From the NCBI GenBank assembly GCA_016288855.1, contig JAEELJ010000004.1, positions 1-42,391 of the forward strand: a DNA stretch of 42,391 nucleotides, in the 5' to 3' direction. The position numbers were made by a program, and so were the translations under genes. The first letter of the stretch is position 1; each line of letters starts with the position of its first letter. Positions 3,302 to 38,390 of this stretch are shown here, piece by piece. Below the pieces are notes generated by a model. That model was not told where the DNA came from. It made no database searches and saw only the letters and a program-made list of their open reading frames with translations. The DNA is from Acholeplasmatales bacterium. Lineage in GTDB: Bacteria > Bacillota_I > Bacilli_A > Acholeplasmatales > Anaeroplasmataceae.

Positions 3302-5527
3302 ATGAAATTTAAAACAATTGCTTTAACTAGTGCAGCATCACTTGCTGTATTAGCATTAGCTTCTTGTGGAAAAGGTTCTAGTACAACTACAGGAACTGGT
3401 GTTACAACAACTACAGGAACTGGTGTTACAACAACAACAGGTTCTGATACAACAACTAGTACAAATGATTATACTTTAACAGTACCAGAAAGCTTTACAC
3501 CAGAAGCTTCTATGGATGTTTCTGACATCGATTTAGAAACTGCAACAGACGAACAGTTATATACTAAGTTCTGGGGCACATATGAACAGGAAGTTGAGGC
3601 TGCTGAAAGTGCAACATCAACTGCTGAAAGATATTATCATTATGCTAAGGCAGAAGCTTATATCTTAGACCAAGCTTTATATTTACCAATGACTACTGAA
3701 GGTGGTACATATGGTCTTACAAGAGCTGCATATCGTTCAGTTCCATATGCAAAGTGGGGTTTAACTAACGAAAGATTAAACAATATTGCAGTAGCAACTG
3801 ATATTGTTAAGCCAGCTGACCGTCAAACTTTAAAGGCTAAATGGCAAGCTGCAAACAATGCAACTAATGAAGGTGGTTATTCAACATGGTCTGATGGTAC
3901 TCATACATCATCATATAACCCTGTTCAAGAATTAACTAATTTAGGATATACAGTTAAGCGTTCATTCAAGGCTGCATTATCTGAATTCCCTCAGACATTT
4001 GACCCAAGTAATACATATAGATCAACTGATATCGATCATATTGCTAACCTATATGATACATTAATCGAATATGATAACGCTGGAAATATCGTTCCAGGTT
4101 TAGCTGAATCTTGGACAAGAAGCCAAGATGGTTTAACTTATACTTTCAACATCCGTCAAGGTGTTAAGTGGGTTGATTCAACAGGAGCTCAAAAGCAAGA
4201 TTTAACAGCAAATGACTTCGTATTTGGTATCAAGAAAGTTCTTGAAAATGCAACTACATCATATATGTATGCTCCTTTAGCTGGTTATGATCCAGTATTA
4301 GCAGATGCAGGTACATTACCAGTTGAAAACTTAGGTGTACGTGCTGTTGATGACTATACACTAGAATTCACTTTATCTGAAAGAGTTGATTATTTCTTAA
4401 CATATTTAACATATGTTTCATATATGCCATTAAATCAGGCTTATTATGAATCAACTGCAACAGTAACTGAAGGTGAAACTACATATGAATATGGTTCAAA
4501 TAAGGATAAGACTTTATATTGTGGACCATTCTATGTAACAGAATTAACTGATGCATCAGCATTCAAGTTAAGAAAGAACTCTAATTACTGGGATGCTTCT
4601 AATACAACTGTTGATGAAGTTATTTATACATTCGATGATTTCTCAAATCAAAAGGCTACATATGATGCATTCAAGGATGGTACATATGATTCAGTTGGCT
4701 TAAATACTGAACGTATGGCATTAGCTAAGGCTGATGGTTTAGATCAATTCAAGTATGTTACTGATACAACTGCTGGTACTTACTTTGGTGGTTTCAACCT
4801 TAACCGTAAGGCTTATGCAACTGAAAGTTATGAAAGCACAACAACATCTACTAAGAGTGATGATGCTAAGGCATTAACTAAGAGAGCTATGTTAAATACT
4901 AACTTCCGTCGTGCATTATTAACTGCAATCAATAAGGAACAATTTAATGCTGCAGTAGTTGGTGCAGATGTTGCATTATTCTCATTAAGAAATACATATG
5001 TTCCATATGACTATGTTGCATTACCTGCAGCAACTGCAGGCTATGAAGCTGGTACAGTATATGGTGATGTTGTATTAGGCGAATTCAATAAGTCAAGCTG
5101 GGGTCAGTATGTAACTGCATTAGCTGATGGCTACAATGCATTCTATTCAACTGATTTAGCACAAGCATTCATCAATAAGGCATTTGAAGAATTAGGCTTA
5201 AGTGATACAGATGTTATTGAAATTGATTATCCATATCAATCATACATCACTGTTTATACTACACGTGCTCAAGTATTAAAGGCAAGTGTTGAAAATGCAA
5301 CTGGTGGAAAGATTAAGATTAATCTTGTTGCATGTAATGATAAGTATGCATTCTACTATAGCAACTACTATGTAGATGAAGCTTCTCAATTAAATTACGA
5401 TATTGATATTTCATCTGGTTGGTTACCTGACTTCGGTGATCCATCAACATATATTAATACATTCTCAAGAAGCGGAGATATGGTTAGATTAAACGGTATC
5501 AATGCTCATTCAAAGAGTGAAGAATAA
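3302..5527 (+). CDS. oppA: Oligopeptide-binding lipoprotein, apparently circularly permuted
   Basis: Solute-binding protein (SBP_bac_5 type) that would capture peptides outside the cell for the opp permease encoded next. Residues 1-22 are a lipoprotein signal (LASC, lipidated C22), followed by a Thr/Gly linker (27-55). Residues about 75-190, from EQLYTKFWGTYEQE through YAKAEAYILDQALYLPMTT to LKAKWQAANNA, resemble the C-terminal part of OppA/AmiA proteins. The usual N-terminal start (FPQTFDPSNTY, then IVPGLAESWT, YTFNIRQGVKW) begins only near residue 215. The protein ends shortly after DFGDPSTYINTF (710-721), where the missing C-terminal segment would begin. At 741 residues it is somewhat longer than AmiA-type proteins. 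The family call is firm; the permutation is a reading of the motif order, with alignments recalled, not computed. Confidence 0.93.
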   Translation: MKFKTIALTSAASLAVLALASCGKGSSTTTGTGVTTTTGTGVTTTTGSDTTTSTNDYTLTVPESFTPEASMDVSDIDLETATDEQLYTKFWGTYEQEVEAAESATSTAERYYHYAKAEAYILDQALYLPMTTEGGTYGLTRAAYRSVPYAKWGLTNERLNNIAVATDIVKPADRQTLKAKWQAANNATNEGGYSTWSDGTHTSSYNPVQELTNLGYTVKRSFKAALSEFPQTFDPSNTYRSTDIDHIANLYDTLIEYDNAGNIVPGLAESWTRSQDGLTYTFNIRQGVKWVDSTGAQKQDLTANDFVFGIKKVLENATTSYMYAPLAGYDPVLADAGTLPVENLGVRAVDDYTLEFTLSERVDYFLTYLTYVSYMPLNQAYYESTATVTEGETTYEYGSNKDKTLYCGPFYVTELTDASAFKLRKNSNYWDASNTTVDEVIYTFDDFSNQKATYDAFKDGTYDSVGLNTERMALAKADGLDQFKYVTDTTAGTYFGGFNLNRKAYATESYESTTTSTKSDDAKALTKRAMLNTNFRRALLTAINKEQFNAAVVGADVALFSLRNTYVPYDYVALPAATAGYEAGTVYGDVVLGEFNKSSWGQYVTALADGYNAFYSTDLAQAFINKAFEELGLSDTDVIEIDYPYQSYITVYTTRAQVLKASVENATGGKIKINLVACNDKYAFYYSNYYVDEASQLNYDIDISSGWLPDFGDPSTYINTFSRSGDMVRLNGINAHSKSEE
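3383..3430 (+). repeat. 24-bp tandem repeat in the OppA linker
   Basis: Two identical 24-base units (3383-3406 and 3407-3430) followed by a degenerate third. They encode the Thr/Gly linker between the lipid anchor and the folded part. The in-frame unit length means copy-number changes would only lengthen or shorten the tether. Confidence 0.85.
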
Positions 5528-5542
5528 TAATATGTAAAAATC

Positions 5543-5577
5543 AGGGTAGATTTTTAAAAAAATCTACCCTTTTTTTC
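5543..5577 (+). terminator. Intrinsic terminator after oppA
   Basis: Near-perfect hairpin of up to 13 bp (5543-5555 with 5558-5570) followed by a run of T. It separates oppA from oppBCDF, which have their own promoter, so the binding protein and the transporter can be made in different amounts. Confidence 0.92.
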
Positions 5578-5595
5578 TTTTTGAGTCCGAAAAAA

Positions 5596-5621
5596 TACAA
5601 AATTTAAAAAATGATTTTGTA
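5596..5621. repeat. Inverted repeat upstream of the oppB promoter
   Basis: TACAAAAT (5596-5603) and ATTTTGTA (5614-5621) are perfect reverse complements 10 bp apart, ending 25 bp before the -35 box. The TACAA/TTGTA half-sites also occur in the palindrome upstream of oppA (3179-3191). A shared operator is possible but unproven. Confidence 0.45.
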
Positions 5622-5646
5622 TGATGTACAAAAAAATATTTTTTAT

Positions 5647-5675
5647 TTGAATTATCAATCGTTTTATATTATAAT
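5647..5675 (+). promoter_or_regulatory. Promoter of oppBCDF
   Basis: -35 TTGAAT (5647-5652), 17-bp spacer, -10 TATAAT (5670-5675). The predicted transcript starts near 5682 and has an 80-base leader containing a hairpin (5706-5746). Confidence 0.85.
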
Positions 5676-5705
5676 ATAAAAGCATATTTTATATATGGAA
5701 GTGGG

Positions 5706-5746
5706 AGACGAAGTTTTATTATTTTTTACTTCGTCTAAATTTTTTT
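5706..5746 (+). terminator. Leader hairpin with T-run, possible attenuator
   Basis: A perfect 9-bp stem (AGACGAAGT 5706-5714 with ACTTCGTCT 5728-5736) and a 13-base loop, followed by AAA and seven T residues, all between the oppB promoter and the oppB ribosome-binding site. It has the shape of a terminator inside the leader. I see no competing antiterminator or known riboswitch, so regulation is inferred. Confidence 0.55.
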
Positions 5747-5761
5747 GAAGAGGGGTTTAAT

Positions 5762-7366
5762 ATGGCAGGTTATATATTAAAAAGAATAGCCAGATCATTT
5801 TTATCCATTATTGTAGTTGTATTTATAATCATGTTATTAGTATTCCAGCTAATGAACAGAGATGCAATTTTCCAAAGTATGAATTTAAATAAGTACACAG
5901 GAAACGCAAGAACTAACTTTAAATACACTCAATGGGCTAAATTTGGTTACTTAGACAAGGTCACATATAGTGATTATGTCGTCGAATTAGTAAAAGATAA
6001 AATATCAAATCAAGCATGGGAATCATACAATTTAGATAATTCTAAATCATATGGTGATTATTATGAAGAATATTATTCATTATATTATACTGATTATTTC
6101 AATGAATTATATGATTCAAAGATGAGTGAAGAAACTCAAACTGTTATAGATTTTAAAGAAAAATATTCTTCAAGAGGATATACAATTATTGATTTAAAGT
6201 CTACAGGAAAAACTAATCCAGCAGTTTTATTTGCTTCAAAAGATATTAATATTTTTGTAAGATTATGGAGATTCTTTGCAGGCGTAATCGTTATAGATAC
6301 TCCAAATTATGCTCAGGTTACAGATACATATAGAGCTAAATATGGCGATATTGAAAGAAAAATATATTTTTCAACTGATTATAATGGCTTACCATGCATA
6401 ATGGGTTCTGGTACAAAGCATAGATATTTATTATATTTTGATAATGTTTATCCATTCGTACATCAAAACTTTATTACTTTAAATCTTGGATATCAATATG
6501 CTTCAGGCAATGATTTCTTTGAATATTTCACAGAAAATCAGGATCCAAGTAAAGAAGTATATCAAACTTTACCTGATGGAACAAAGGGATATTCATCTTA
6601 TAATTATCATGAAAGAACATTCTCTCAAAATCCATTAGAGTCTGATGTTGAAGTTTATGGTGATACATATACAAATGTTTCAACATATAAGGAACAATTA
6701 TCTAGATTAGGTTATTCATTTGTAATTGGTATTATTTCAACTATTTTAGTATACTTAATTGGTATTCCTCTAGGATTATTATTAGCATTAAAGAAGGATA
6801 AGATTGCTGATAAGATTGGTAATTTCTATATTATCTTCATTATGGCAGTTCCATCTTTAGCATATATTTATATTTTCTCATTCCTAGGACATGAATGGTT
6901 AAAATTACCAAATAGCTGGCCTACTGGTACTAAGCCTTTAATTTATGTTTTACCTATCATATCATTAGCTTTACCATCTATTGCGACAATGATGAAGTGG
7001 GTAAGAAGATATACAATCGACCAAATGACTGCAGATTATGTTAAGTTTGCAAGATCACAAGGCTTTAGTGAAGGTGAAATTTATAGAAAGCATATCTTAA
7101 AGAATGCTTTAATTCCAATTGTACAAGGTATTCCTGCATCAGTATTAGGTGCTTTAACAGGTGCTATCATTACTGAAGGTGTATATAAGGTTCCTGGTAT
7201 GGGTAAATTATTAGTTGATGCAATCAATAAGAGTGATAATGGTGTTATCGTTGGTATTTCATTCTTCTATGCATTATTATCAATTGTTTCATTAATCTTA
7301 GGTGACGTATTAATGTCAAAGGTTGACCCAAGAATTTCATTTGCGAGCGGAGGAGGAAGAAAGTAA
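5762..7366 (+). CDS. oppB: Oligopeptide ABC transporter permease OppB, enlarged
   Basis: Membrane subunit of the peptide importer. Residues 8-31 form the first helix after the family-typical start GYILKRIARSF. The core permease domain begins near residue 318 and carries the cytoplasmic coupling loop (DYVKFARSQGFSEGEIYRKHILKNALIP) and the final VDPRI tail. Between them lies an external segment of about 280 residues, rich in Tyr, Asp and Asn; in ordinary OppB (about 310 residues in all) this loop is short. Total length is 534. The loop could dock the unusual binding protein, but that is inference. A GAGGGG ribosome-binding site supports the ATG. First gene of the oppBCDF unit. Confidence 0.93.
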   Translation: MAGYILKRIARSFLSIIVVVFIIMLLVFQLMNRDAIFQSMNLNKYTGNARTNFKYTQWAKFGYLDKVTYSDYVVELVKDKISNQAWESYNLDNSKSYGDYYEEYYSLYYTDYFNELYDSKMSEETQTVIDFKEKYSSRGYTIIDLKSTGKTNPAVLFASKDINIFVRLWRFFAGVIVIDTPNYAQVTDTYRAKYGDIERKIYFSTDYNGLPCIMGSGTKHRYLLYFDNVYPFVHQNFITLNLGYQYASGNDFFEYFTENQDPSKEVYQTLPDGTKGYSSYNYHERTFSQNPLESDVEVYGDTYTNVSTYKEQLSRLGYSFVIGIISTILVYLIGIPLGLLLALKKDKIADKIGNFYIIFIMAVPSLAYIYIFSFLGHEWLKLPNSWPTGTKPLIYVLPIISLALPSIATMMKWVRRYTIDQMTADYVKFARSQGFSEGEIYRKHILKNALIPIVQGIPASVLGALTGAIITEGVYKVPGMGKLLVDAINKSDNGVIVGISFFYALLSIVSLILGDVLMSKVDPRISFASGGGRK

Positions 7367-7367
7367 T

Positions 7368-8390
7368 ATGGAAAATAATAATATTTTAAATAATGAAATC
7401 ATATCCGAAGCTGATGAAAATAAGGTTGAAGAAATTAATGAAGATGAATTATTTAAATTTGTAGAAGAAGATCCTGAAGCATCTGAAAAAATCACTGCTC
7501 CAAGATATTCTTACTGGAAATCTGTATTAAGAGTATTCTTCAGAAAAAAATCAAACTGGGTAGCATTAGGTATTTTAATAATAATGTTATTATTAACATA
7601 TATTTATGGTAGTACAGTAAAAACCCCTTTATCAGACTACACTATTAATCCTAATGTATTAGTAAGTGAGTATAAGAATTTAACTCCAAAGCAAGCTATT
7701 GGTGAATTTGGATTCAGCTTAAAATGGATCTTAGGTACTGGTGCTTATGGTGAATCTACATTACAACATATTTGGGCTGGTGCTAGAATTTCATTAACAT
7801 TAGCTGTTATTTGTGCAGCTATCAATATGACACTTGGTGTTGTTATTGGTGCTGTATGGGGATTCTCAAAAAAAGTAGATGTTGTTATGACAGAAGTTTA
7901 TAACATTATCGCAAATATTCCATATATTTTATTCGTTTCAGTATTTGTATTAGTATTAGGACCTGGCTTCTGGTCATTTGTTATTGCATTAACTGTAACT
8001 GGTTGGTTAGGTATTGCATATTTCATAAGAACACAGGTTTTAATTATTAGAGATAGAGAATATAACTTAGCTTCTAAGTGTTTAGGTACAGGATTATTTA
8101 AGTTAACTACTAAGAATATCTTACCTTATTTAACATCAGTTATTGTTACTATTCTTGCAACTGAAGTACCATCATATATTTCATATGAAGTATTCCTATC
8201 TTATTTAGGAATTGGTATGGATAGTAATACTCCATCATTAGGTAAACTAATTCAGGCAGCACAGTCAAGTATGACTATTTACCCAATTCAATTCTGGGGA
8301 CCAGTATTAGTTTCATCATTATTAACAATAATTTTATATGTTGTAGGACAGAATTTAGCAGATGCATCTGATCCTAGAACTCATATGTAG
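7368..8390 (+). CDS. oppC: Oligopeptide ABC transporter permease OppC
   Basis: Second membrane subunit of the peptide importer. The start is set at the ATG at 7368 (GGAGGAAG ribosome-binding site, one base after the oppB stop), giving 340 residues; an upstream in-frame start would overlap oppB. Residues 1-45 are an acidic cytoplasmic tail. The first helix (around 65-80) follows the SYWKSVLRVFFRKKSNWVAL stretch typical of OppC. Five more helices follow, with the coupling loop REYNLASKCLGTGLFKLTTKNILPY and the C-terminal DASDPRTHM. It is the least modified of the transporter subunits, slightly long because of the N-terminal tail. Confidence 0.93.
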   Translation: MENNNILNNEIISEADENKVEEINEDELFKFVEEDPEASEKITAPRYSYWKSVLRVFFRKKSNWVALGILIIMLLLTYIYGSTVKTPLSDYTINPNVLVSEYKNLTPKQAIGEFGFSLKWILGTGAYGESTLQHIWAGARISLTLAVICAAINMTLGVVIGAVWGFSKKVDVVMTEVYNIIANIPYILFVSVFVLVLGPGFWSFVIALTVTGWLGIAYFIRTQVLIIRDREYNLASKCLGTGLFKLTTKNILPYLTSVIVTILATEVPSYISYEVFLSYLGIGMDSNTPSLGKLIQAAQSSMTIYPIQFWGPVLVSSLLTIILYVVGQNLADASDPRTHM

Positions 8391-8403
8391 TAGAGGTGAT
8401 ATC

Positions 8404-10236
8404 ATGGAAGAAAGAAAAAAGATATTACAGCTATCAAAAGTAGAAGTTGAATTTAAGGTTAGAGGTCGTATTTTAACTGCAATTCGTGGTGTTGATTTAG
8501 ATATTTATGAAGGTGAATCAATTGCAATTGTAGGTGAATCAGGTTCAGGTAAATCTGTTTTAACTAAGACTTTCTCTGGTATGCTTGATTCAAATGGTTA
8601 TGTTTCTAATGGGTCAATCATTTATGATGATCCTGAATTATCAGAAACATATGGTAAAAAGACTGCTTTAAATCTTAAAATATATAATTCATTCATTAAC
8701 AAATTAAATGAATATTCAAAGTATGAATATGGTGTTAATGAGCATAAAGAAATAGTTAATTACAAAAAAGAAATTCAAGCAAAAGTTTCTGCATCTATTG
8801 AGGAAGAAGAAGCTTATAAAAAGAAAATTAACGATTTAGAATTTGATCGTGTTGAAAAATTCAATTATAAGCAAACTCTAGATTCTAAGAAGGATGCTAA
8901 TGAAATCGAAAAGATTAAATTAGAAATTAAAGAAATATATGCAAAAGAAAAGGAACTATCTTTAGAATTTAAAAAGTTAGTTTCTGAAAGAGCTAATGCA
9001 TATAAGTTAAATCAAGAAGAAGTTTTAAAAGATAAGCAAAAATTACAAGAATTAAATGAAAAATTCGAAAAAGCAATTAATGTTTCTATTTCTGACGAAC
9101 AAAAGAAACGTAATGAATTAATTGCAAAAGAATTAATTCTTTCAATCGCAAGATATCCATTCAGCAAGAAATTCATGGCATATAGAGGCTTATTAAAGGC
9201 TTATAAGAATGCTATGATTGAAGGTTTAGATATTTATAAAGAAGAAGTTAGAGATGAGATTTGTGGTTCTATAGCATTTAGAGTTAAATTCTTAGATGAA
9301 ACTAATGAAGAGGATTGCAAAGAAAAAGAAACACCAAAGTGGCATGGTTATTGTAGACTAGATTTAGCTAAATTCAAGCTAAATTCAGACTGGAACCAAA
9401 TCCGTGGTGCTAAGATTGCAACAATCTTCCAGGACCCAATGACTTCCTTAAACCCAATTATTAAAATCGGTAAGCAAATTACAGATTGTATCTTAAAGCA
9501 TCAAGATTTAACTGTTACTCAAGCACGTCATAAGGCTATTAAGCTAATGAAACTTGTAGGTATTCCTAATCCTGAAAAGAGATTTGATGATTATCCATTC
9601 CAATATTCTGGTGGTATGAGACAAAGAATTGTTATCGCAATTGCTTTATCATGTGAACCAAGAATATTAATTTGTGATGAACCTACAACAGCTCTAGACG
9701 TTACAATTCAAGCACAAATTATTAGATTAATTAAGGACTTACAACGTAAGCTTGGTTATACAATTGTATTCATCACTCACGATTTAGGTGTTGTTGCAAA
9801 TGTTGCTGACCGTGTTGCAGTTTTATATGCAGGACAGGTTGTTGAAGTTGGTAAGGTTGAAGAAGTATTCTATGACCCACGTCATCCATATACTTGGTCA
9901 TTATTATCATCATTACCTCAGTTATCAACAAGAGGAGAAGAATTATTCTCTATTACAGGTACACCACCATCTTTATATAATAAGATTAAGGGTGATCCTT
10001 TTGCTCCAAGAAACCCATATAGAATGGCAATTGATTACGTTAAAGAACCACCAATGTTCAAGGTTTCTGATACACACTATGCTAAAACATGGTTATTAGA
10101 TCCTCGTGCACCAAAGGTTGAAAAACCACAAATTATTCAAGATATCCATAATAAGCTATCTAATACAGTATATGGTAAAACTATGGATGAAATTGAAAAT
10201 GGTAACCTAGATTCAGTAGAAAGTGAGGCAAAATAA
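8404..10236 (+). CDS. oppD: Oligopeptide ABC transporter ATPase OppD with large insertion
   Basis: Cytoplasmic ATPase that powers peptide import with OppF. Start placed at 8404 (AGAGGTGAT site), 610 residues. Walker A is GESGSGKS (44-51), the Q-loop [11 protein letters not shown] (Q343), the signature YSGGMRQR, Walker [12 protein letters not shown], the H-loop FITHD, and the OppD C-terminal peptide-transporter domain ([13 protein letters not shown], then FAPRNPY). Walker A and the Q-loop are about 290 residues apart; around 50 is usual. The extra 240 or so residues (about 80-325) are Lys/Glu-rich and probably coiled coil. The C-terminal Cys cluster seen in many OppD proteins is absent. All ATPase motifs are intact, so it should be active. 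Confidence 0.93.
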
Positions 10237-10237
10237 T

Positions 10238-11893
10238 ATGTCAGATAAAGAAAAAGATATTTTAGAACCTCAAACTGAAAATGAAACAAATGAAGAAGTA
10301 AAAGAAGTAAGTACTACTACTGAAAATGAGGAGCAAACTAAGGAAGAACAAAAATTCTATAAAGAAAACTTTGATTTTGCTCAAGATGATGAAGTTTTTA
10401 AATTACAATTAAAGAATCGTTTTGCTGAAGATAAGGCTAAAATTGCTGAATTAAAAGCAAAATATCAAGAAGAAATTCAAGGTAATATTTCTGATGTGAC
10501 AAAAGGAAGAAACCTTAAGATTGCTAAATTAATTTTATTATCTACAATTCCTAATGGAATTAAAGCAAATAAGATTGCAAAAAATATCATTAAAGATTTA
10601 AAGTCTTTAATGTCTACTGGTAGTATCTTAGATGATTCAAATGTTAAGCTTTCTATTGAAGATTATTGCCCATATTATCAATTAACTGATAATGAAAAGC
10701 TAGCTGCAAAAGATTCTATAGGCAATGTAATTGAAATAGATTCTAATGAATCATATGCTAAAATTATCGCAAGCTATTCTGGTGTAGATGTTACAAAGGT
10801 TAAGCTATCAAGTGATATTAAGGTTAGTGATGTATTAGCTGAATATCATAATTTAATTAATGAAGCATCTAAATTAGAATTAGGCTCTGAAACATTTAAA
10901 AAGATCCAATATTATAAGAAGGATTTAAACCGTACTATTCCATTACAAGGACCAATTGATCCAACAAATGGAAAAGAAATAATTGTATCTTTAAAGAATG
11001 TAGATATAACATTTGGTAGTTTTAAAGCAGTAAAAGATGCATCATTTAATATCTATAAGGGTGAAACATTTGCTCTAGTAGGTGAATCAGGCTCTGGTAA
11101 AACAACTATTGGACGTGCAATTATTAGAATTAATCCAATTTCTAATGGTGAAATTCGTTATAAGGGTATGAAAATATCTGGTAAGATTTCACATAAGGCT
11201 GACCGCGAAGTTGTAAGAAATATTCAAATGATATTCCAAGATCCTGCTGCATCATTAAATGAACGTGCAACAATTGAATATATTGTTTCAGAAGGTTTAT
11301 CAAATTTCCATCTTTATAATTCTGAAAAAGAAAGAATTCATAAGGTTGAAAATATAATAAAAGAAGTAGGTTTATTACCTGAACATTTAACTCGTTATCC
11401 ACATGAATTCTCAGGTGGACAGCGTCAACGTGTTGGTATCGCAAGATCAATTGTAATGGAACCTGAATTCGTTATTGCAGATGAACCAATCTCAGCACTA
11501 GATGTATCTATTCGTGCACAAGTATTAAACTTATTAAAGAAGTTCCAGCATAATTTAGGTATTACATACCTATTTATTGCTCACGACTTATCAATCGTTA
11601 GATTTATTTCAGATAGAATTGCAGTTATTTACTTAGGTAATATTGTTGAAATTGCAGAGACAGAAGAATTATTCTTACATCCAATGCATCCATATACTAA
11701 GTCTTTATTATCAGCAATTCCAGTACCAGATCCTGAAATTGAAAAGAATAAGAAATTATTCGTTTATGACCCATCAGTTCATCACTATGAAGAAAATAAG
11801 CCTAGTCTAAGAGATATTGGACATGGACATTTCGTATTCTGTAATGATGAAGAATTTGATAGTTATAAAGCAATTAGAAATAAAACTAATTAA
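10238..11893 (+). CDS. oppF: Oligopeptide ABC transporter ATPase OppF with N-terminal extension
   Basis: Partner ATPase of OppD. The ATG at 10238 follows the oppD stop by one base, giving 551 residues. The ABC domain starts only near residue 249 ([18 protein letters not shown]), with Walker A GESGSGKT (282-289), Q-loop [11 protein letters not shown], signature [10 protein letters not shown], Walker [12 protein letters not shown] and H-loop IAHD. The first 245 residues have no counterpart in ordinary OppF (about 320 residues): an acidic tail, then a Lys/Glu-rich and helical part. Together with the OppD insertion this suggests an extra cytoplasmic assembly on the transporter, which is inference. 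Confidence 0.93.
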
Positions 11894-31003: not shown

Positions 31004-32179
31004 TTGGAAAAATTCGAATCAAACTCTAAGTTTAGTGTGTATTCTAGTTTTACATTATCAAATGATGATGTAAATATAATATTTTTACTTTATGCACCAT
31101 TGATTGGACCTGAGGCAGTAACATTATACTGTAGCTTCCAATCTCTATTAGAGCGTAACAATTTAAAGAGTGAAAAGCTCACTCACCAAGATTTATTTGA
31201 CCTATATTCACTTAAGGCTGAGTCTTTTAAAAAGGCTCGTTACAAGCTTGAAGGTATAGGTCTTTTAATAACTTATTTGAATGAAGAAAATGAGTATATT
31301 TATATACTATGTCCACCACTTACTGCAAAGAATTTTATTAAAGATGCAACATTAGGATTATTTTTATATTCTAAGGTTAATAAAGATACATTCGATTTTA
31401 TTACTAATCATTTTAAAATTGAAAAAATTGAGAAAAATAATTATACAAATATTACAAAAACATTTGATGATGTATTTACATTACGTCAAGTAAATCAAGA
31501 AACATTTGAAAAGTTCTCATACCTACTTGGTAGAAAGCCTAATAAGTCAATTAAGATTAATAGTAATCCATTTGATTTTGACAGATTCTTAACTATGATT
31601 GAGCAAGGCTTCTTAGAATATGGTGTTACATCTAAATTTAAGGAACAAATTTGTAATTTAGCATTCGTATATGGGTTTGATGAATCTGATATGGTAGGGT
31701 TATATCATGATTCAGTAAATAAAAGTCAGCTATTTGATTATAGATTACTTAAGAAGAAAGCCAATATCTTATTTAATTATAAAAAGAATATGAAGGGACC
31801 TGTATTAGAAGAAAAGAATGATTTAGATGATGAAGCTAATGATTTAATTTCATGGCTTGATGAATCTTCACCTTCTGATTTATTAGAAGAAATAATTCCT
31901 AATTACCCTCCAAAATATTTAGATACTGTATTAAAAATTTATGAGGAGATTAATTTACCAAGAGGTGTTCTTAACTGTATGATTGTTAAAGTAGTTAAGG
32001 ATAAGAGTGGTGAATTACCTGCAGTAAATTATTTTAAAAAGGTTTCTGATTCATGGATTAGTGATTCTGTATTCACAACAAAGGATGCAGTAAAATATGT
32101 AACTACAATGAAGACAGATGATGATATCGTTACTGATGTTAAAACTATTGATGACAATGGAGGTTTTGAAACATTATAA
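31004..32179 (+). CDS. dnaB: Replication initiation protein DnaB (helicase loader partner)
   Basis: Resembles the Bacillus-type DnaB/DnaD superfamily protein that works with DnaI to load the replicative helicase. The position directly before dnaI supports it. It has an N-terminal winged-helix-like part (about 20-110, IIFLLYAPLIGPEAVTLYCSFQSLLERN) and C-terminal DnaB/DnaD domain traits (residues 280-370, ANDLISWLDESSPSDLLEEI, then YPPKYLDTVLKIYEEINLPRGVLNCMI). The only possible start is TTG at 31004, since the stop of the previous gene (30998-31000) is in the same frame two codons earlier, and no clear ribosome-binding site is visible. 391 residues. Confidence 0.85.
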   Translation: MEKFESNSKFSVYSSFTLSNDDVNIIFLLYAPLIGPEAVTLYCSFQSLLERNNLKSEKLTHQDLFDLYSLKAESFKKARYKLEGIGLLITYLNEENEYIYILCPPLTAKNFIKDATLGLFLYSKVNKDTFDFITNHFKIEKIEKNNYTNITKTFDDVFTLRQVNQETFEKFSYLLGRKPNKSIKINSNPFDFDRFLTMIEQGFLEYGVTSKFKEQICNLAFVYGFDESDMVGLYHDSVNKSQLFDYRLLKKKANILFNYKKNMKGPVLEEKNDLDDEANDLISWLDESSPSDLLEEIIPNYPPKYLDTVLKIYEEINLPRGVLNCMIVKVVKDKSGELPAVNYFKKVSDSWISDSVFTTKDAVKYVTTMKTDDDIVTDVKTIDDNGGFETL

Positions 32180-33045
32180 TGGATTTTTATAAATATAATA
32201 ATAATCAATTTGATGAAAAAGAACTTGAAAAGTATATAAAAGAAATCCAGTCTCATTTTCCAAATGTCGAAGTTACATTAGATAATGTTAATGATTGTAG
32301 CTTAGTTTTAACTGAAAGACAAAACTGTAGAAATTGTCCTGGATTACACTCTTGTAAAAACCAGGTTAAAGGTTTTATGACTGATATGGTAGAAGATAAA
32401 TTTACATCTATACCATGTAGATTTAAAAAGGAAATAATTGAAAAGAATTCTAAGGATTCATTAATTAAAACTTTATATATGCCTCAGTCTATTAAAGAAT
32501 ATACATTTGAAAATTATAATTTAGAATGTGAATCAAGACAAAAGATATATTCTTATGTACAAAATTTTATTATTAATTATGGTAAAGAACCAGTTAAAGG
32601 CTTATACATAAGTGGTACATTCTCAATTGGTAAAACTTATACATTAGCTTGTATCGCAAATGAGCTTTCTAAGGCTGGCATTTCATCTTTATTAATTTAT
32701 TTTCCGGATTTAGTTTCTGATATTAAACAGGCACTAAATGATCAGAGATTCACGTCAGTTGTTAATATGCTAAAGGAAATTGATGTATTAATGCTAGATG
32801 ATTTTGGTAGTGAAAATATGACTCCATGGCTAAGAGATGAAATACTTGGACCTGTATTAAATTATAGAGCCTTAGAACATAAGCCTGTCTTTGTTTCATC
32901 TAATCTTTCAATAGCTGAAATAAAAACGCATATAATGATAGATAAATTTAAATCTTCTGAAATAAAAGCTGAAAGAATTTTAGAAAGATTAAAGACAGTA
33001 TCTATTACTATTAGTATGGATGATTCGCAAAAATATAAGAGATAA
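32179..33045 (+). CDS. dnaI: Primosomal protein DnaI (helicase loader)
   Basis: AAA+ ATPase that loads the replicative helicase at oriC. 288 residues; its ATG overlaps the dnaB stop by one base. The N-terminal part carries a likely zinc site (CRNCPGLHSC: Cys50, Cys53, His57, Cys59). The AAA+ domain has Walker A GTFSIGKT (146-153), Walker B VLMLDDFGSE and the sensor-like VFVSSNLS, typical of DnaC/DnaI. Last gene of the polA operon; the stop codon lies in the terminator stem. Confidence 0.94.
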   Translation: MDFYKYNNNQFDEKELEKYIKEIQSHFPNVEVTLDNVNDCSLVLTERQNCRNCPGLHSCKNQVKGFMTDMVEDKFTSIPCRFKKEIIEKNSKDSLIKTLYMPQSIKEYTFENYNLECESRQKIYSYVQNFIINYGKEPVKGLYISGTFSIGKTYTLACIANELSKAGISSLLIYFPDLVSDIKQALNDQRFTSVVNMLKEIDVLMLDDFGSENMTPWLRDEILGPVLNYRALEHKPVFVSSNLSIAEIKTHIMIDKFKSSEIKAERILERLKTVSITISMDDSQKYKR

Positions 33046-33067
33046 TCTTAAAAAGGTTATCTTTTTT
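33040..33067 (+). terminator. Intrinsic terminator overlapping the dnaI stop
   Basis: A 10-bp stem with one G-U pair (33040-33049 with 33053-33062) followed by T residues. The dnaI stop codon is inside the left arm. Ends the polA-dnaI operon. Confidence 0.9.
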
Positions 33068-33082
33068 ATTTTCTTTTTAAAA

Positions 33083-33117
33083 TTAATAAAATTAATCTTG
33101 AGGTTAATAAAATTAAT
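33083..33117. repeat. Pair of 14-bp direct repeats, each a dyad
   Basis: TTAATAAAATTAAT occurs exactly at 33083-33096 and 33104-33117, a repeat distance of 21 bp (two helical turns). Each copy contains the 13-bp palindrome TTAAT-AAA-ATTAA. The second ends eight bases before the -35 box of the DUF2089 promoter. Confidence 0.8.
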
Positions 33118-33124
33118 TTTGTGC

Positions 33125-33152
33125 TTTACAAATTATAAATTTAGGCTATAAT
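33125..33152 (+). promoter_or_regulatory. Promoter of the DUF2089 module
   Basis: -35 TTTACA (33125-33130), 16-bp spacer, -10 TATAAT (33147-33152). The start codon at 33175 has an AAGAGGTGATT site. Confidence 0.75.
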
Positions 33153-33174
33153 TAAAGTGTAAAGAGGTGATTCC

Positions 33175-33600
33175 ATGAAAAAAAGCGTAATTGGGTATTG
33201 TCCAGTGTGTCAAAAGAAGTTAATGGTAAAAACTTTAAGATGCAATGAATGTGACACTGAAATCACAGGAGATTTTGAAATGTCACCATTTGATTACTTA
33301 ACTCAAGAACAAAAGGATTTTGCGTTAGTATTCATAATGAGTGATGGAAATATTAAAGAAATAGAACGTAAATTAAATATTTCTTATCCAACAGTAAAAA
33401 AGAACATGGATGATCTTAAAGGCGCATTAGGTGTTAAGGTATCTTCAGATAACGAATTAGATAATGAGGTAATTGTTCCTGAAGTTGTATTGAAGGATGA
33501 AAAGCCTAATAAGAATTTAAGAGATGATGTTAAGCGTCGCCTTAAGAATGGTGAAATAGACTTTGAAGAGGCAGAAAGGATTTTAGGTGGAAATCTATGA
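33175..33600 (+). CDS. DUF2089 family putative regulator
   Basis: A 141-residue protein with an N-terminal zinc-ribbon-like part (CPVCQKK, CNECDTE: four Cys) and a helix-turn-helix-like middle (FVLIF-type core YLTQEQKDFALVFIMSDGNIKEIERKLNISYPTVKKNMDDLKGALG). This is the layout of DUF2089 proteins, probable DNA-binding regulators. The C-terminal 40 residues end in VKRRLKNGEIDFEEAERIL, a short motif often attached to SHOCT-like tails. It overlaps the next gene by four bases (ATGA). It may autoregulate through the repeats at 33083-33117, which is inference. Confidence 0.86.
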   Translation: MKKSVIGYCPVCQKKLMVKTLRCNECDTEITGDFEMSPFDYLTQEQKDFALVFIMSDGNIKEIERKLNISYPTVKKNMDDLKGALGVKVSSDNELDNEVIVPEVVLKDEKPNKNLRDDVKRRLKNGEIDFEEAERILGGNL

Positions 33601-34409
33601 AAAAGGATTATTTAGAAAGACTTTCAAAAGAATTAGATAAAAGAAATGTTTCTAATAAGGATGAAATTCTAAAAAAATATGAAAAAAGATATGATTTTGG
33701 TAAGGAATCTGGTATGAGTGATTCTGAAATAGAAGAGATGCTTAAAAAGCCAGAGGATGTTGCAAAAGAATTTTCAAAGAATTATGATAAAAAAGATGAA
33801 AAGAAAGATGAAGTAAAAACTAATATTCAAATTAAGGTATTAGGTGATGATATTTATTTTAGACCTGCAAAGGATGATAGAGTTCATATTTTATGTGATG
33901 AATTAGATAAATCATTATATACTATAAGAAATTCAACATCAGAAGGTTTAGTAATAAGCTTCTTAAATGATAGATATTTATCATTAAATAGAAAAAAGGC
34001 AGGTAAATTTATAATTGAAATACCTGAGGGTAGAAAATTTAATGAAGTAAAAATATCAACAAATTCAGGTGATATAGTATTAGGTAGCTTAAAATGTAAT
34101 TATATATCACTTACAACAACATCAGGTGATATTTCAGTTAATGAGGTAGTATCACCAAGAACGAATGTTCAAACTGTATCAGGTGATTTAATCGCAAAGT
34201 CATTGTCTGCAAAGGATATTAATTTATCTACAGTGTCAGGTGATTTATCTGCACTTAAGGTTAGAGGAAATTTAAAGGTTTCAACAGTATCAGGAGATGT
34301 AAAAATTGGAACCTTTAATGGACAATATAAGGTATCAAATGTATCAGGTGATGTTTTCATCAACGGTACACAAATTAATGGATTAAGATTTATGTATAAG
34401 GGGGTATAA
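33597..34409 (+). CDS. DUF1700-like / DUF4097 beta-strand repeat protein
   Basis: A 270-residue protein with an N-terminal helical part like DUF1700 (MKKDYLERLSKELDKR, SDSEIEEMLKKPEDVAKEF), a Lys/Asp linker (65-75) and a C-terminal beta-strand repeat. In that region SGD recurs about six times (NSGDIVLGSL, TSGDISVNEV, VSGDLIAKSL, VSGDLSALKV, VSGDVKIGTF, VSGDVFINGT), as in DUF4097 / LiaG-type putative adhesins. Such proteins accompany envelope-stress regulators. No signal peptide is seen. It overlaps the DUF2089 gene by ATGA and is followed two bases later by a membrane protein, so the three form a module. Confidence 0.85.
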   Translation: MKKDYLERLSKELDKRNVSNKDEILKKYEKRYDFGKESGMSDSEIEEMLKKPEDVAKEFSKNYDKKDEKKDEVKTNIQIKVLGDDIYFRPAKDDRVHILCDELDKSLYTIRNSTSEGLVISFLNDRYLSLNRKKAGKFIIEIPEGRKFNEVKISTNSGDIVLGSLKCNYISLTTTSGDISVNEVVSPRTNVQTVSGDLIAKSLSAKDINLSTVSGDLSALKVRGNLKVSTVSGDVKIGTFNGQYKVSNVSGDVFINGTQINGLRFMYKGV

Positions 34410-34411
34410 AT

Positions 34412-34756
34412 ATGAGCTTTAAATCTAAAATTATAACAATTACACCAATGGTATCTTTAATTATTTATCTATTTATCGGATTTGTTTTTAATATATGGCA
34501 TCCAACATGGGTAATTTTCTTTTCAATATTAATTGTTCCAGCATTATTTAGTAATACTGCATCTAAGGTTGTATGTGCATTATGGCCTTTAATATGTATA
34601 GTTGCATATATACTAATGGGTGTTTTAGGTAATTATTGGCATCCAGGCTGGTTAATTTTCTTAACTATTCCAATTGTTGAAACATTATTTCAAGGTGTAA
34701 CATTTGGTAAAAAGAAAAACAAAAAAAGAATTGAAATAGTAGAAGATAGAGACTAA
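34412..34756 (+). CDS. Membrane protein with internal repeat
   Basis: A 114-residue protein with four hydrophobic helices arranged as two copies of the same unit: FNIWHPTWVIFFSILIVPALF (about 27-47) and LGNYWHPGWLIFLTIPIVETLF (about 75-96), each preceded by a helix. The WHPxW motif is probably at the membrane surface. The C-terminus is basic (KKKNKKRIE). It begins two bases after the DUF4097 gene with an AAGGGGGT site. Likely the membrane member of the envelope module; function unknown. Confidence 0.8.
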   Translation: MSFKSKIITITPMVSLIIYLFIGFVFNIWHPTWVIFFSILIVPALFSNTASKVVCALWPLICIVAYILMGVLGNYWHPGWLIFLTIPIVETLFQGVTFGKKKNKKRIEIVEDRD

Positions 34757-34764
34757 ATTTTATG

Positions 34765-34798
34765 AAGGCATCAATTTTTGGTGCCTTTTTATTTTTTT
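34765..34798 (+). terminator. Intrinsic terminator
   Basis: A 10-bp stem with one G-U pair (34765-34774 with 34778-34787) followed by T-runs. It ends the DUF2089 module. Confidence 0.88.
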
Positions 34799-34858
34799 CG
34801 ACAAAAAAGACAATTATTTTTATATTATTTAATGAAAATAAAAAACGGAGGAGTTAAT

Positions 34859-36181
34859 ATGAAAAAAAATATTGGTTTTTTGTCTTTAGGTCTTGTTGCA
34901 GTTTCTATTGTTTCTTGTGGTAAAAATAATATTAGTAATACATCAGTTTTAGATAATACATCAGTTTTAACAACTACTAAATCTGATAATTCTAAACCTT
35001 TAAAGAATTTACCTACTAAGGTTGATGTTACAAAAATTTATTCTAATGATAGCTATAATGATTTTGTGATTGATTATAATGATTTTTCAGTAGATATTTT
35101 AGAAAAACTAGAAAAAAATAATAATAATTCAAATACAAGCTATTCACCATTATCTATTTATAGTGCAATATCTAGTATGCTTCCTATGCTATCAGATACT
35201 GCAAAGGAAGAAGTATTACAATCATTAGGAATGGATATTGATGAGGTAGAAGCTAATACTAAGATTTTATATAGTCTTTCAAATGATAAGAATTCAATTC
35301 TTTCTAATTCTATATGGTTTAGTGATGAATTAAATATTAATTATGATACTGTTAAGAAAATAGCTAATACTTATTATTCAGAAATTTTTAAAATTGATTT
35401 TGCAAGCGAAAGTAATTTAATAAATGAATATATTAAAAATCATACAAATGACTTACTTGATAGCTGTGGTCCAATATCAGATGATACAATTTTATATATT
35501 TTAAACACATTCTATTTTAATGATGCATGGTCTTTTGATGCAAAAACAAATGGTCATATTACTAGATATTTTGAAAATACAGATAAATCATATGAAACTA
35601 AAAAATTATATTATTCAAATTATAATGGTTTTGAAAAGAGTTATATAACAGATGATTATAAATCTTATTATTTAAGAAGTAAAAATGATTATAAGCTTTC
35701 ATTTGTAATACCTTTAGGTGATAAGAAGGTTTCAGATATTTATAATAAAGAAAATATTAAAGATATTATAGAGCACAACTATTATGTAAGAAGTGATAAT
35801 AATATAGTATATAATACTCGTATTGCATTCCCTGAATTTAGTGCAGGTTTTGATGATGAAATAACTAATGTGATTAAAGATATGGGAATAAATGAGATAT
35901 TTAATGCTAATAATAATCCTTTCTCAAATATTACTACTAATAATGATGTAGCTGCTGGTAGTGTTTGGCATAGAACTAATTTAAATGTTAATAAGGATGG
36001 TATGGAAGGCGCTGCAGCAACATCAATAAGTATTACGTGTGCAGCAACAACATATGGAGGAGAAATTCAAAATGTTTATGATACATTCTATGTTGATAAG
36101 AGCTTTTTCTATGTCATAGAAGATAAAATGGGGTCTATAGTTTTTAGTGGTGTTGTAAATAAAATAGATAGTGATAATTAA
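34859..36181 (+). CDS. Serpin (serine protease inhibitor) lipoprotein
   Basis: Secreted and lipid-anchored protease inhibitor of the serpin family. The start is the ATG at 34859, with a CGGAGGAG site; an upstream ATG at 34778 lies in the previous terminator. Of 440 residues, 1-20 are a lipoprotein signal (SIVSC), followed by a Ser/Thr/Asn linker. The serpin body shows NTSYSPLSIYSAISSMLPMLSDTAKEEVLQSLGM, then ILNTFYFNDAW, and DLNVNKDGMEGAAATS (hinge, about 376-388), followed by the PF-type end FFYVIEDKMGSIVFSGVV. The small Ala residues of the hinge are kept, so it should be inhibitory. By counting from the hinge, P1 is about Ala395 (TCA-ATTY), pointing to elastase-like targets. Confidence 0.9.
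   Translation: MKKNIGFLSLGLVAVSIVSCGKNNISNTSVLDNTSVLTTTKSDNSKPLKNLPTKVDVTKIYSNDSYNDFVIDYNDFSVDILEKLEKNNNNSNTSYSPLSIYSAISSMLPMLSDTAKEEVLQSLGMDIDEVEANTKILYSLSNDKNSILSNSIWFSDELNINYDTVKKIANTYYSEIFKIDFASESNLINEYIKNHTNDLLDSCGPISDDTILYILNTFYFNDAWSFDAKTNGHITRYFENTDKSYETKKLYYSNYNGFEKSYITDDYKSYYLRSKNDYKLSFVIPLGDKKVSDIYNKENIKDIIEHNYYVRSDNNIVYNTRIAFPEFSAGFDDEITNVIKDMGINEIFNANNNPFSNITTNNDVAAGSVWHRTNLNVNKDGMEGAAATSISITCAATTYGGEIQNVYDTFYVDKSFFYVIEDKMGSIVFSGVVNKIDSDN
34937..34972 (+). repeat. 18-bp tandem repeat in the serpin linker
   Basis: The 15-base AATACATCAGTTTTA occurs at 34937-34951 and 34955-34969, in register 18 bp apart, encoding NTSVLD-NTSVLT. It lies just after the lipidation site, like the tandem repeat in the OppA linker. 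Confidence 0.8.
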
Positions 36182-36193
36182 TTATATTTCATG

Positions 36194-36222
36194 TTGAATT
36201 CGATTCTAAATTATTATATAAT
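36194..36222 (+). promoter_or_regulatory. Promoter of the thrS T-box transcript
   Basis: -35 TTGAAT (36194-36199), 17-bp spacer, -10 TATAAT (36217-36222). Transcription should begin near 36229. Confidence 0.85.
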
Positions 36223-36228
36223 TTTAGT

Positions 36229-36455
36229 ATCGATGAAAAGGACGAGATATATAAAGTTCTTACTTTTAGAGACTGTATGGTTGGTGAAAATACAGATAAG
36301 ATTTATATGTTACTACCTTTGAGATTCATGGAGGAAATGCCATGACGTATTACTGCGTTAAAGTATTTGAGTGTCAGGTTATTTATTAATCTGAAATTAA
36401 GGTGGTACCACGGTTAATTCGCCCTTAGATTTTAGGTCTAAGGGCTTTTTATATT
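36229..36455 (+). ncRNA. T-box leader of thrS (Thr-responsive)
   Basis: The leader shows Stem I with the apical GGTTGGTGAAAATACAG region, a candidate specifier ACC (36315-36317, with ACT just before), the T-box element GGTGGTACCACGG (36401-36413) and a terminator (36421-36429 with 36437-36445) followed by T residues. UGGU in the T-box would pair with an ACCA tRNA end. Uncharged tRNA-Thr should permit read-through into thrS. Confidence 0.93.
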
Positions 36456-36470
36456 TTAGGAGGAAGAAAT

Positions 36471-38390
36471 ATGGTAAAGGTTACTTTAAAGGATGGAAGC
36501 ATCAAGGAAGTAGAAAAAGGTACATTAATTATTGCGGTAGCAAAGGAATTATCAACATCATTAGCTAAGAAGGCTTTAGTTGCAAAGCTTAATGGTAAGC
36601 TTGTTGATTTAAAGGATCCAATTTTAGAGGATTCAACATTAGAACTTATTATGCCAAATGATGCTGAAGCATTTGAGGTGTTAAATCACTCAACAGCTCA
36701 CTTAATGGCTCAGGCTGTAACTAGATTATATAAGGGAACTTTATGTGGAGTAGGACCTGCGATTGAAGAAGGATTCTATTATGATTTTAAGACTCCAGTT
36801 CCACTAACAAATGAAGATTTACCAAAGATTGAAGCTGAAATGAAGAAGATTGCAAAAGAAAATTTAGCAATTACTCATTATATTTTAACAAGAGATGAAG
36901 CAAAGAAATTATTTAGCTATGACAAGTTCAAACTTGAATTAATTGATACAGCTGATTCTGATGCAATTGGTATTTATGAACAAGGTGAATATAAGGATGT
37001 ATGTAGAGGACCTCATGTTATTTCAACTGGTGTTTTAAAGAATTTTAAATTATTATCAGTTGCCGGTGCATACTGGAGAGGTGATGCTAAGAAGGATGTA
37101 TTAACTCGTATTTATGGTACATGCTGGGCAACACCTGAAGAATTAGAAAATCACTTAAAGGTATTAGAGGATCGTAAGGAAAGAGATCATAGAAAGATTG
37201 GTAAGGACATGGGAATTTTCATGTTCGATGAATTAGTAGGTAGAGGCTTACCTATGTGGTTACCAAATGGTTTCATAGTAAGAAGATTATTAGCTGACTA
37301 TATTATGGATAAGGAATACGCGTTAGGATATAAGCATGTTATGACTCCATCATTAGGAAATGTTAATCTATATAAGACTTCAGGTCACTGGGATCATTAT
37401 AAGGATGATATGTTCCCTGCAATGGAAGTTGATGATGAAGCATATGTATTAAGACCAATGAACTGCCCTCATCACATGGTTATGTTCCGTTCAAAGCTTC
37501 ATTCATATAGAGATTTACCAGTTCGTATTGCTGAAATTGCAAACGACTTCCGTTTTGAAGCATCAGGAGCTTTAACTGGTATTGAAAGAACACGTGCATT
37601 CTCTCAAAATGACTCTCATATTTTCTGTCGTAATGATCAGATTAAAGAAGAGGTTAAGGGAGTTGTTAAGCTAATTCTTGATGTTTATAATGATTTTGGA
37701 TTCAAGAATTATACATTCCGTCTATCTTTAAGAGATCCTAAGAATGTAGAAAAGTATTTCGGTAATGATGATTTATGGACAAAGTCTGAAACTGAATTAA
37801 GAGAAATCTTAAATGAATTAGGTGTTAATTATTATGAAGCTGAAGGTGAAGCTGCATTCTATGGTCCAAAGATTGACGTTCAGGTTAAATCATCAATCGG
37901 ACATGATGTAACATTATCTACAGTTCAATTAGATTATCAATTACCTGAAAGATTTGAATTAACTTATGTTAATGAAAATAAAGAAAAGGTTAGACCAGTT
38001 GTTATTCACCGTGCAATTTTAGGTTCAATGGACCGTTTCGTTGCATTCCTATTAGAAGAAACTAAGGGTGTATTACCAGTATGGCTAGCACCTACACAGG
38101 TTATGATTATTCCAGTTAACCTTGATTACCATAAGGAATTCTCTGATGATTTAGCATTTAAGCTAAGAAAAGCAGGAATTCGTTATGAAGTAGATTATCG
38201 TGAGGAAAAGCTTGGTTATAAGATTCGTGAAGCACAAACAAGAAAGATTCCATATCAGTTAGTTGTTGGTGATAACGAAGTTAAGAATGGAACAGTTACT
38301 TATCGTGAATATGGTAAGCAAGAGCAAACAACTGTTTCAATTGATGAATTCATCAACCTAATTCTTGAAAAGAATAAAGAATTAAAGTAA
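36471..38390 (+). CDS. thrS: Threonyl-tRNA synthetase
   Basis: Class II aminoacyl-tRNA synthetase for threonine. Residues 1-62 are the TGS domain, 65-230 the editing (SAD-type) domain with HSTAHLMAQA and YCGP-like DVCRGPHV, then the catalytic core with the zinc ligand Cys in RPMNCPHHMVMF, RIAEIANDFRFEASGALTGIERTRAFSQNDSHIF and the motif 3 VVIHRAILGSMDRF. The C-terminal anticodon-binding domain ends near 635 (PVNLDYHKEF and RYEVDYREEKLGYKIREAQ). The length of 639 is normal. A TAGGAGGAAG site precedes the ATG. Confidence 0.98.
   Translation: MVKVTLKDGSIKEVEKGTLIIAVAKELSTSLAKKALVAKLNGKLVDLKDPILEDSTLELIMPNDAEAFEVLNHSTAHLMAQAVTRLYKGTLCGVGPAIEEGFYYDFKTPVPLTNEDLPKIEAEMKKIAKENLAITHYILTRDEAKKLFSYDKFKLELIDTADSDAIGIYEQGEYKDVCRGPHVISTGVLKNFKLLSVAGAYWRGDAKKDVLTRIYGTCWATPEELENHLKVLEDRKERDHRKIGKDMGIFMFDELVGRGLPMWLPNGFIVRRLLADYIMDKEYALGYKHVMTPSLGNVNLYKTSGHWDHYKDDMFPAMEVDDEAYVLRPMNCPHHMVMFRSKLHSYRDLPVRIAEIANDFRFEASGALTGIERTRAFSQNDSHIFCRNDQIKEEVKGVVKLILDVYNDFGFKNYTFRLSLRDPKNVEKYFGNDDLWTKSETELREILNELGVNYYEAEGEAAFYGPKIDVQVKSSIGHDVTLSTVQLDYQLPERFELTYVNENKEKVRPVVIHRAILGSMDRFVAFLLEETKGVLPVWLAPTQVMIIPVNLDYHKEFSDDLAFKLRKAGIRYEVDYREEKLGYKIREAQTRKIPYQLVVGDNEVKNGTVTYREYGKQEQTTVSIDEFINLILEKNKELK

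Follow-up and report, generated by a model that had tools for sequence, protein, structure and literature searches.

A predicted lipid-anchored serpin of a probably wall-less Anaeroplasmataceae-type bacterium and its sigma factor-linked relatives

A serpin gene with a lipoprotein signal peptide

The window, by which we mean the whole stretch of 42,391 nucleotides analyzed here, carries a serpin gene whose product is likely to be a lipid-anchored, probably inhibitory serpin that protects the exposed membrane of an Anaeroplasmataceae-type bacterium lacking a wall. As a serpin gene it is genuine and ordinary, a further example of a known family with a plausible role, and its reading frame, correctly delimited at both ends by an earlier sequence-only reading, is intact, with neither a stop nor a frameshift (Table 1). 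The Pfam Serpin profile PF00079 matches residues 74–434 of the 440-residue product over its full length (155 bits, E 4.3e-45, profile positions 4–368 of 370; cut-off 27 bits), and a phmmer search of the PDB retrieved 174 distinct sequences at E ≤ 0.001. Profile match and predicted fold thus both place the protein in the serpin superfamily. It is the one serpin found in the window genome.

Residues 1–20, MKKNIGFLSLGLVAVSIVSC, form a signal peptide ending in a lipobox cysteine (IVS-C20), which is kept in the syntenic relative G004; the protein is therefore a predicted lipoprotein, as the sequence-only reading had proposed when it described the serpin as tethered to the cell surface. The following linker is poorly conserved, with 20 of 47 aligned residues identical to the relative, and the first 50 residues have pLDDT values below 50 in the AlphaFold model. 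Upstream of the gene, a terminator and a promoter-like site part it from the preceding genes, and counterparts with altered sequence are present in G004. The promoter-like site is weak on its own, since the scan yields fewer such sites than shuffled sequences do.

Table 1. Features of the serpin locus in the window and sigma-serpin gene pairs of relatives
Feature	Position	Strand	Basis
dnaI-like gene, left flank of insertion	32179..33045	+	IstB/DnaA ATPase match; synteny
DUF2089 regulator (zinc ribbon, HTH, SHOCT-like), inserted block	33175..33600	+	Pfam
HAAS-Toastrack (DUF4097, LiaG-like) protein, inserted block	33597..34409	+	domain models
Small hydrophobic protein of 114 aa, probably in the membrane, inserted block	34412..34756	+	hydrophobic sequence; no Pfam match
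Intrinsic terminator between upstream cassette and serpin	34764..34788	+	scan; G004 has a hairpin-like stretch of different sequence in the equivalent position (by eye)
Promoter-like TCGACA-N17-TATATT of serpin gene	34798..34826	+	scan; G004 retains the CGACA and TATTAT parts
Ribosome-binding site GGAGGAG	34847..34853	+	sequence
Serpin lipoprotein CDS, 440 aa (ATG at 34859, stop ending at 36181)	34859..36181	+	PF00079 155 bits; translation
Lipoprotein signal peptide (residues 1–19) and lipobox Cys20 (IVS-C)	34859..34918	+	sequence; LTS-C in syntenic relative
Linker of low conservation, residues 21–70	34919..35068	+	pLDDT and alignment with relative
Hinge and reactive-centre loop, residues 381–400 (P15 Gly381 to P5')	35999..36058	+	alignment of 91 serpins
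P1-P1' by register, Ala395-Ala396	36041-36046	+	alignment of 91 serpins
T-box leader of thrS, right flank	36224..36429	+	RF00230, 118.4 bits
thrS, right flank of insertion	36471..38390	+	profile match
ECF sigma and membrane-spanning serpin pairs, Anaeroplasmataceae	L038:6949-8897, L039:7576-9512, L033:7256-9098, L034, L036, L037, L041		
Second set of sigma-serpin pairs, f11 (10 genomes)	L133, L134, L135, L136, L137, L117, L119, L120, L130, L131		
Second set of sigma-serpin pairs, f32 (1 genome)	L094		

Reactive-centre loop and predicted structure

The loop was read against an alignment of 91 full-length serpins, which omits fragments shorter than 360 residues (n = 5: L045, one of two in L071, L085, and two in L086) and small or broken matches at G450:C3, G486:C7, G243:C1, G618:C17, and G608:C57. 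Its register, with P1 placed by the usual count of 15 residues from P15 (the canonical loop spacing), gives Ala395 as P1, where it had been expected from the sequence, and Ala396 as P1'. The hinge earlier described as inhibitory in type, GMEGAAATS, corresponds to residues 381–389 and keeps Ala at P11–P9 and Thr at P8, which is broadly compatible with that description. Compared with the P17–P9 hinge consensus ExGTEAAAA reported in PMC10090351, five of the eight defined positions match, the differences being P14 Met, P12 Gly, and P17 Lys. Among the 52 lipoprotein rows of the alignment, P11 is Ala in 45, P10 is Ala in 48, and P8 is Thr in 49; a bulky P14 (I, M, F, or L) is found in 30 and P12 Gly in 28. 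The residue at P1 by register is A, S, T, or G in 45/52 lipoprotein rows, 16/18 sigma-linked rows, and 17/21 others. Ala395 as P1 is only a guess, because PMC5127057 describes target proteases cutting the siropins at P3-P2 and P6-P5 and not at the predicted P1.

In an AlphaFold model of the window serpin (alignment of 22 sequences, mean pLDDT 79.4, pTM 0.80), residues 381–390 form a strand following the strand 369–378, while residues 393–405 are unordered. The hinge is thus modelled as an extra β-strand, as in cleaved serpins, and the best structural matches of the model are mostly cleaved, loop-inserted serpins, the top one being cleaved PAI-1 (Z 41.1, 2.4 Å, 352 residues). This strand and these matches suggest that the hinge can enter sheet A in the model, although modelling of this kind may be biased towards inserted forms irrespective of function. 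A hinge unable to insert had been named beforehand as the outcome that would count against the inhibitory reading; the predicted model inserts the loop, with the same reservation about modelled forms.

Sequence change of the serpin and its functional state

Between the window and G004, the serpin (L035:7735-9051 in G004) has diverged to 55.5% identity, compared with 75.5–94.2% for nine other genes of the stretch. Its dN/dS is 0.45 versus 0.07–0.22 for the nine neighbours, with dS in a similar range, and is thus the highest among the ten genes compared and well below 1. The G004 protein shares the block, the position, and the lipobox with the window protein but differs in its loop, GFKASAATSIDITLA|STT, and in the hinge, with P14 Phe and P12 Ala. 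Loop and body are similarly affected (12/20 and 175/308 identical residues, respectively); an arms race confined to the loop would have made it evolve faster than the body, which is not seen, and the rapid change fits either diversifying or relaxed selection. Relaxed constraint, together with the unusual P14 Met and P12 Gly, would be expected of a non-inhibitory or decaying serpin in which protease trapping has been lost. We regard such a loss as unlikely: both hinge residues are common in the lipoprotein group, the frame is undamaged, dN/dS stays well below 1, and the invariant core residues are retained, as is the predicted fold. A side observation on loop variation comes from L030:275-4335 (G010:C135), where three lipoprotein serpin genes lie in tandem and their loops differ.

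The sequence-only reading called serpins rare in bacteria. This does not hold in the neighbourhood of the window organism, where they occur in 17/55 genomes of the family, 20/160 of the order, and 66/395 of the class sample; in the phylum sample they are present in 50/392 genomes. A lipobox was assigned to 54 of the 91 full-length serpins by a simple rule, which is crude, as are the transmembrane rules: L110 and L095 look like lipoproteins yet were classed otherwise.

Cell envelope and proposed role

Members of Anaeroplasma dwell in the rumen and have no cell walls. The penicillin-binding transpeptidase profile PF00905 has no match in the window genome, which is rated 100% complete, while it is present in 10/14 control genomes, so that the window organism probably has neither cell wall nor peptidoglycan. 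In such a cell, membrane proteins would be exposed to proteases from outside. We infer inhibition, the target class, and a protective role for the serpin along the following lines. After export and lipid attachment at Cys20, the protein would sit on the outer side of the membrane, tethered through a flexible linker of 50 residues. A protease cutting the exposed loop near Ala395 would cause the loop to enter sheet A and would be trapped as a distorted acyl-enzyme; because the cut loop inserts and the protease stays bound, the serpin would act as a one-shot surface guard. The small residues around the cut site suggest a target accepting Ala, Ser, or Thr at P1, hence an elastase-like or subtilisin-like enzyme of the host or of neighbouring microbes.

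Bifidobacterium longum is an actinobacterium with a cell wall. Its serpin (BL0108) is, like the window protein, surface-anchored and has been proposed to shield a gut commensal against proteases (PMC8012564), but it has a predicted N-terminal transmembrane anchor instead of a lipobox, and its elastase targets are experimentally shown. The siropins of Eubacterium sireum, also serpins and likewise from a gut bacterium, differ from the window protein in that inhibition of neutrophil elastase and proteinase 3 has been measured (PMC5127057). A variant compatible with the surface-guard reading, to which we give somewhat less than an even chance, would replace host elastase as the target by a protease, such as one of subtilisin or papain type, that other microbes or the serpin-bearing cell secrete. 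The small loop residues would suit many other proteases, and papain raised serpin production in B. breve (PMC8012564); however, both the B. longum serpin and the siropins act on elastase-type host enzymes, and subtilisin is reported in PMC5127057 as not inhibited by the siropins. Under either variant, the window serpin would remain a guard of the cell surface. Few surface serpins of gut bacteria have been studied in the laboratory, few of their natural targets have been identified, and a serpin on a wall-less cell offers a simple case for testing the protection of membrane proteins.

The inserted block and its neighbourhood

The serpin gene lies within a 3.1-kb block, together with the DUF2089, HAAS-Toastrack, and small hydrophobic protein genes, flanked by dnaI and thrS. 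The block was seen at this place in two genomes of the genus only (G000 and G004) and is absent from all 20 other genus loci examined at thrS. In 18 of these 20 loci both dnaI and thrS are visible; the gap between them is at most about 530 bases in 14, and other genes lie between them in four (L052, L054, L058, L065). The gene content of the dnaI-thrS interval (window 32179-36471 and the same four loci) accordingly differs by species of the genus, and the interval genes of L054 and L058 have lipoprotein-like starts.

To judge from their domains, the upstream DUF2089 and HAAS-Toastrack genes may form an envelope-stress cassette, the serpin having a candidate promoter of its own. DUF2089 and Toastrack contexts have been proposed as membrane-stress circuits (PMC11237479, the PSP paper), in the main text of which the word serpin does not occur. 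The window serpin might then be the extracellular sensor of this cassette, with protease attack being read as envelope stress. The four genes do travel as one block in the two genomes, and relatives couple a serpin to a sigma factor, albeit by another route. We nevertheless consider this improbable: terminator and candidate promoter set the serpin apart from the cassette in both genomes, a lipoprotein has no membrane-crossing segment, and a block common to two genomes only means that co-arrival proves little. The window protein was also considered as an anti-sigma factor and rejected, as its lipobox lies at residue 20, it has no inner segment, and the gene upstream encodes the 114-residue hydrophobic protein and not a sigma factor.

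The sequence-only reading had also placed the serpin in the same region as peptide uptake genes and suggested that protease control and peptide scavenging might be linked. The first statement holds only loosely and the second finds no support, because the oligopeptide transporter operon (3302-11890) is 23 kb away and the serpin adjoins a different cassette between dnaI and thrS; a common operon is ruled out by this distance and by the unrelated genes in between. The transporter operon comprises OppA, B, C, D, and F, the best matches of which are NCBI mollicute models (MMSYN1), below their cut-offs.

Membrane-spanning serpins linked to ECF sigma factors

Among the 91 full-length serpins, of which five have fewer than 400 bases upstream, 18 combine an inner segment, a single membrane span, and an ECF sigma-factor gene directly upstream. 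L069 and L093 are doubtful among the serpins counted as membrane-spanning, and L120 was assigned to this class by hand, its first ATG being too far in. The HMM behind the sigma count was itself trained on 17 of these upstream genes; Pfam independently supports 14 of the 18 (4 + 10), the others being L036, L037, L039, and L136, with the sigma protein of L131 just below the Sigma70_r2 cut-off. Both sigma proteins tested with the general ECF model TIGR02937 passed its cut-off. A sigma neighbour is found in 18 of the 23 serpins with at least 30 residues before the membrane span versus 0 of the 68 others (Fisher p 7e-15, rows counted without correction for relatedness).

Within the family of the window organism, a sigma-linked serpin is present in seven genomes, namely G013 from the same genus and six from a different one. 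These proteins have about 40–45 residues before the membrane span, the upstream genes encode sigma-70 regions 2 and 4, and the sigma and serpin genes overlap or lie about 1 base apart. The second set is from two other families of the same class, f11 and f32 (Table 1). In a second structure model, made for the membrane-spanning serpin of L038, the inner segment has pLDDT values below 50. The sigma-linked rows fall into two main branches and one long row, the 91-row tree requiring three label changes, and a single origin was rejected by an AU test of one clade (p 0.0025; quick tree of 87 rows, 17 of them sigma-linked, the long rows L130, L102, L073, and L093 being dropped). The hinge also varies: in the f11/f32 branch P11 is Ala in 0/11, with K, T, S, Q, H, or E there, and in the seven Anaeroplasmataceae forms P11 stays Ala or Gly. 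The former may be pure sensors and the latter perhaps sensor and inhibitor at once.

The nearest known working model, by analogy, is RsiV, whose sigma factor is set free when it binds and inhibits lysozyme (PMC5014341). Like the sigma-linked serpins, RsiV is a membrane protein with an ECF sigma partner. Its outer domain, by which an attack enzyme of the host is bound and inhibited (PMC5014341), does not belong to the serpins; the window protein differs from RsiV in having neither inner segment nor sigma partner. The serpin genes of B. breve represent a different solution to a similar task. We incline, by a modest margin, to the view that, in the serpin group that includes the window protein, membrane anti-sigma factors have on two or more occasions recruited the serpin fold as their outer sensor. 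When a protease attacks the reactive loop, the large irreversible conformational change would be transmitted through the membrane and release the ECF sigma factor. In Anaeroplasmataceae at least, this factor would drive its own operon. The window lipoprotein, in a lineage lacking this switch, would be the corresponding free inhibitor. A serpin would be suited as a trigger, because it reports a protease by one permanent shape change. If this is true, the sigma-linked serpin would be the protease counterpart of RsiV, sensing and inhibiting; working as predicted, it would be a bacterial protease receptor built from an inhibitor, by which the cell could sense attacking proteases. The sigma-linked relatives thus offer a testable answer to the purpose of some prokaryotic serpins. 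In the open-access literature searched, no published description of a serpin anti-sigma factor was found. S2P proteases are present in 18/18 of the genomes with sigma-linked serpins, which is uninformative as they are also present in 14/14 controls.

A promoter-like motif of the sigma-serpin operons

Upstream of the Anaeroplasmataceae operons we found the promoter-like motif TGTCAC-N17-TGTTTTAT within otherwise poorly alignable sequence; the L038 row was shifted in this alignment by the use of a wrong sigma start, and the motif aligns regardless. An exact genome-wide search of 18 genomes returned it once in each of six sigma-serpin genomes, at that operon, these six being the ones whose contig extends upstream (the contig of G051 ends within the sigma gene and gave no hit). 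Of the 11 remaining genomes, nine lack an exact hit, G010 has one, and G047 has two, and the reversed control pattern gave one hit across the same 18 genomes. One of the G047 hits precedes a sigma-gene start running into a serpin end, apparently what a deletion has left of a sigma-serpin operon. The frame concerned, seen in L153 and L024 (G047:C151), is 106 residues long, with a sigma-like start, a serpin C-terminal end, and the motif intact upstream.

A wider regulon was considered and rejected: of the one-mismatch sites, 11 were inspected, and those common to genomes fall within coding sequence and therefore point to no further target. Scanning 120 bases upstream in f11 for short fragments of the same motif gave nothing convincing. 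Membrane-spanning serpins also occur apart from sigma genes, as in f14 (L122–L129, L077, and L083), where they have a lysine-rich inner end and no sigma neighbour; in L122–L129 the match to the serpin profile is interrupted midway by a long insertion.
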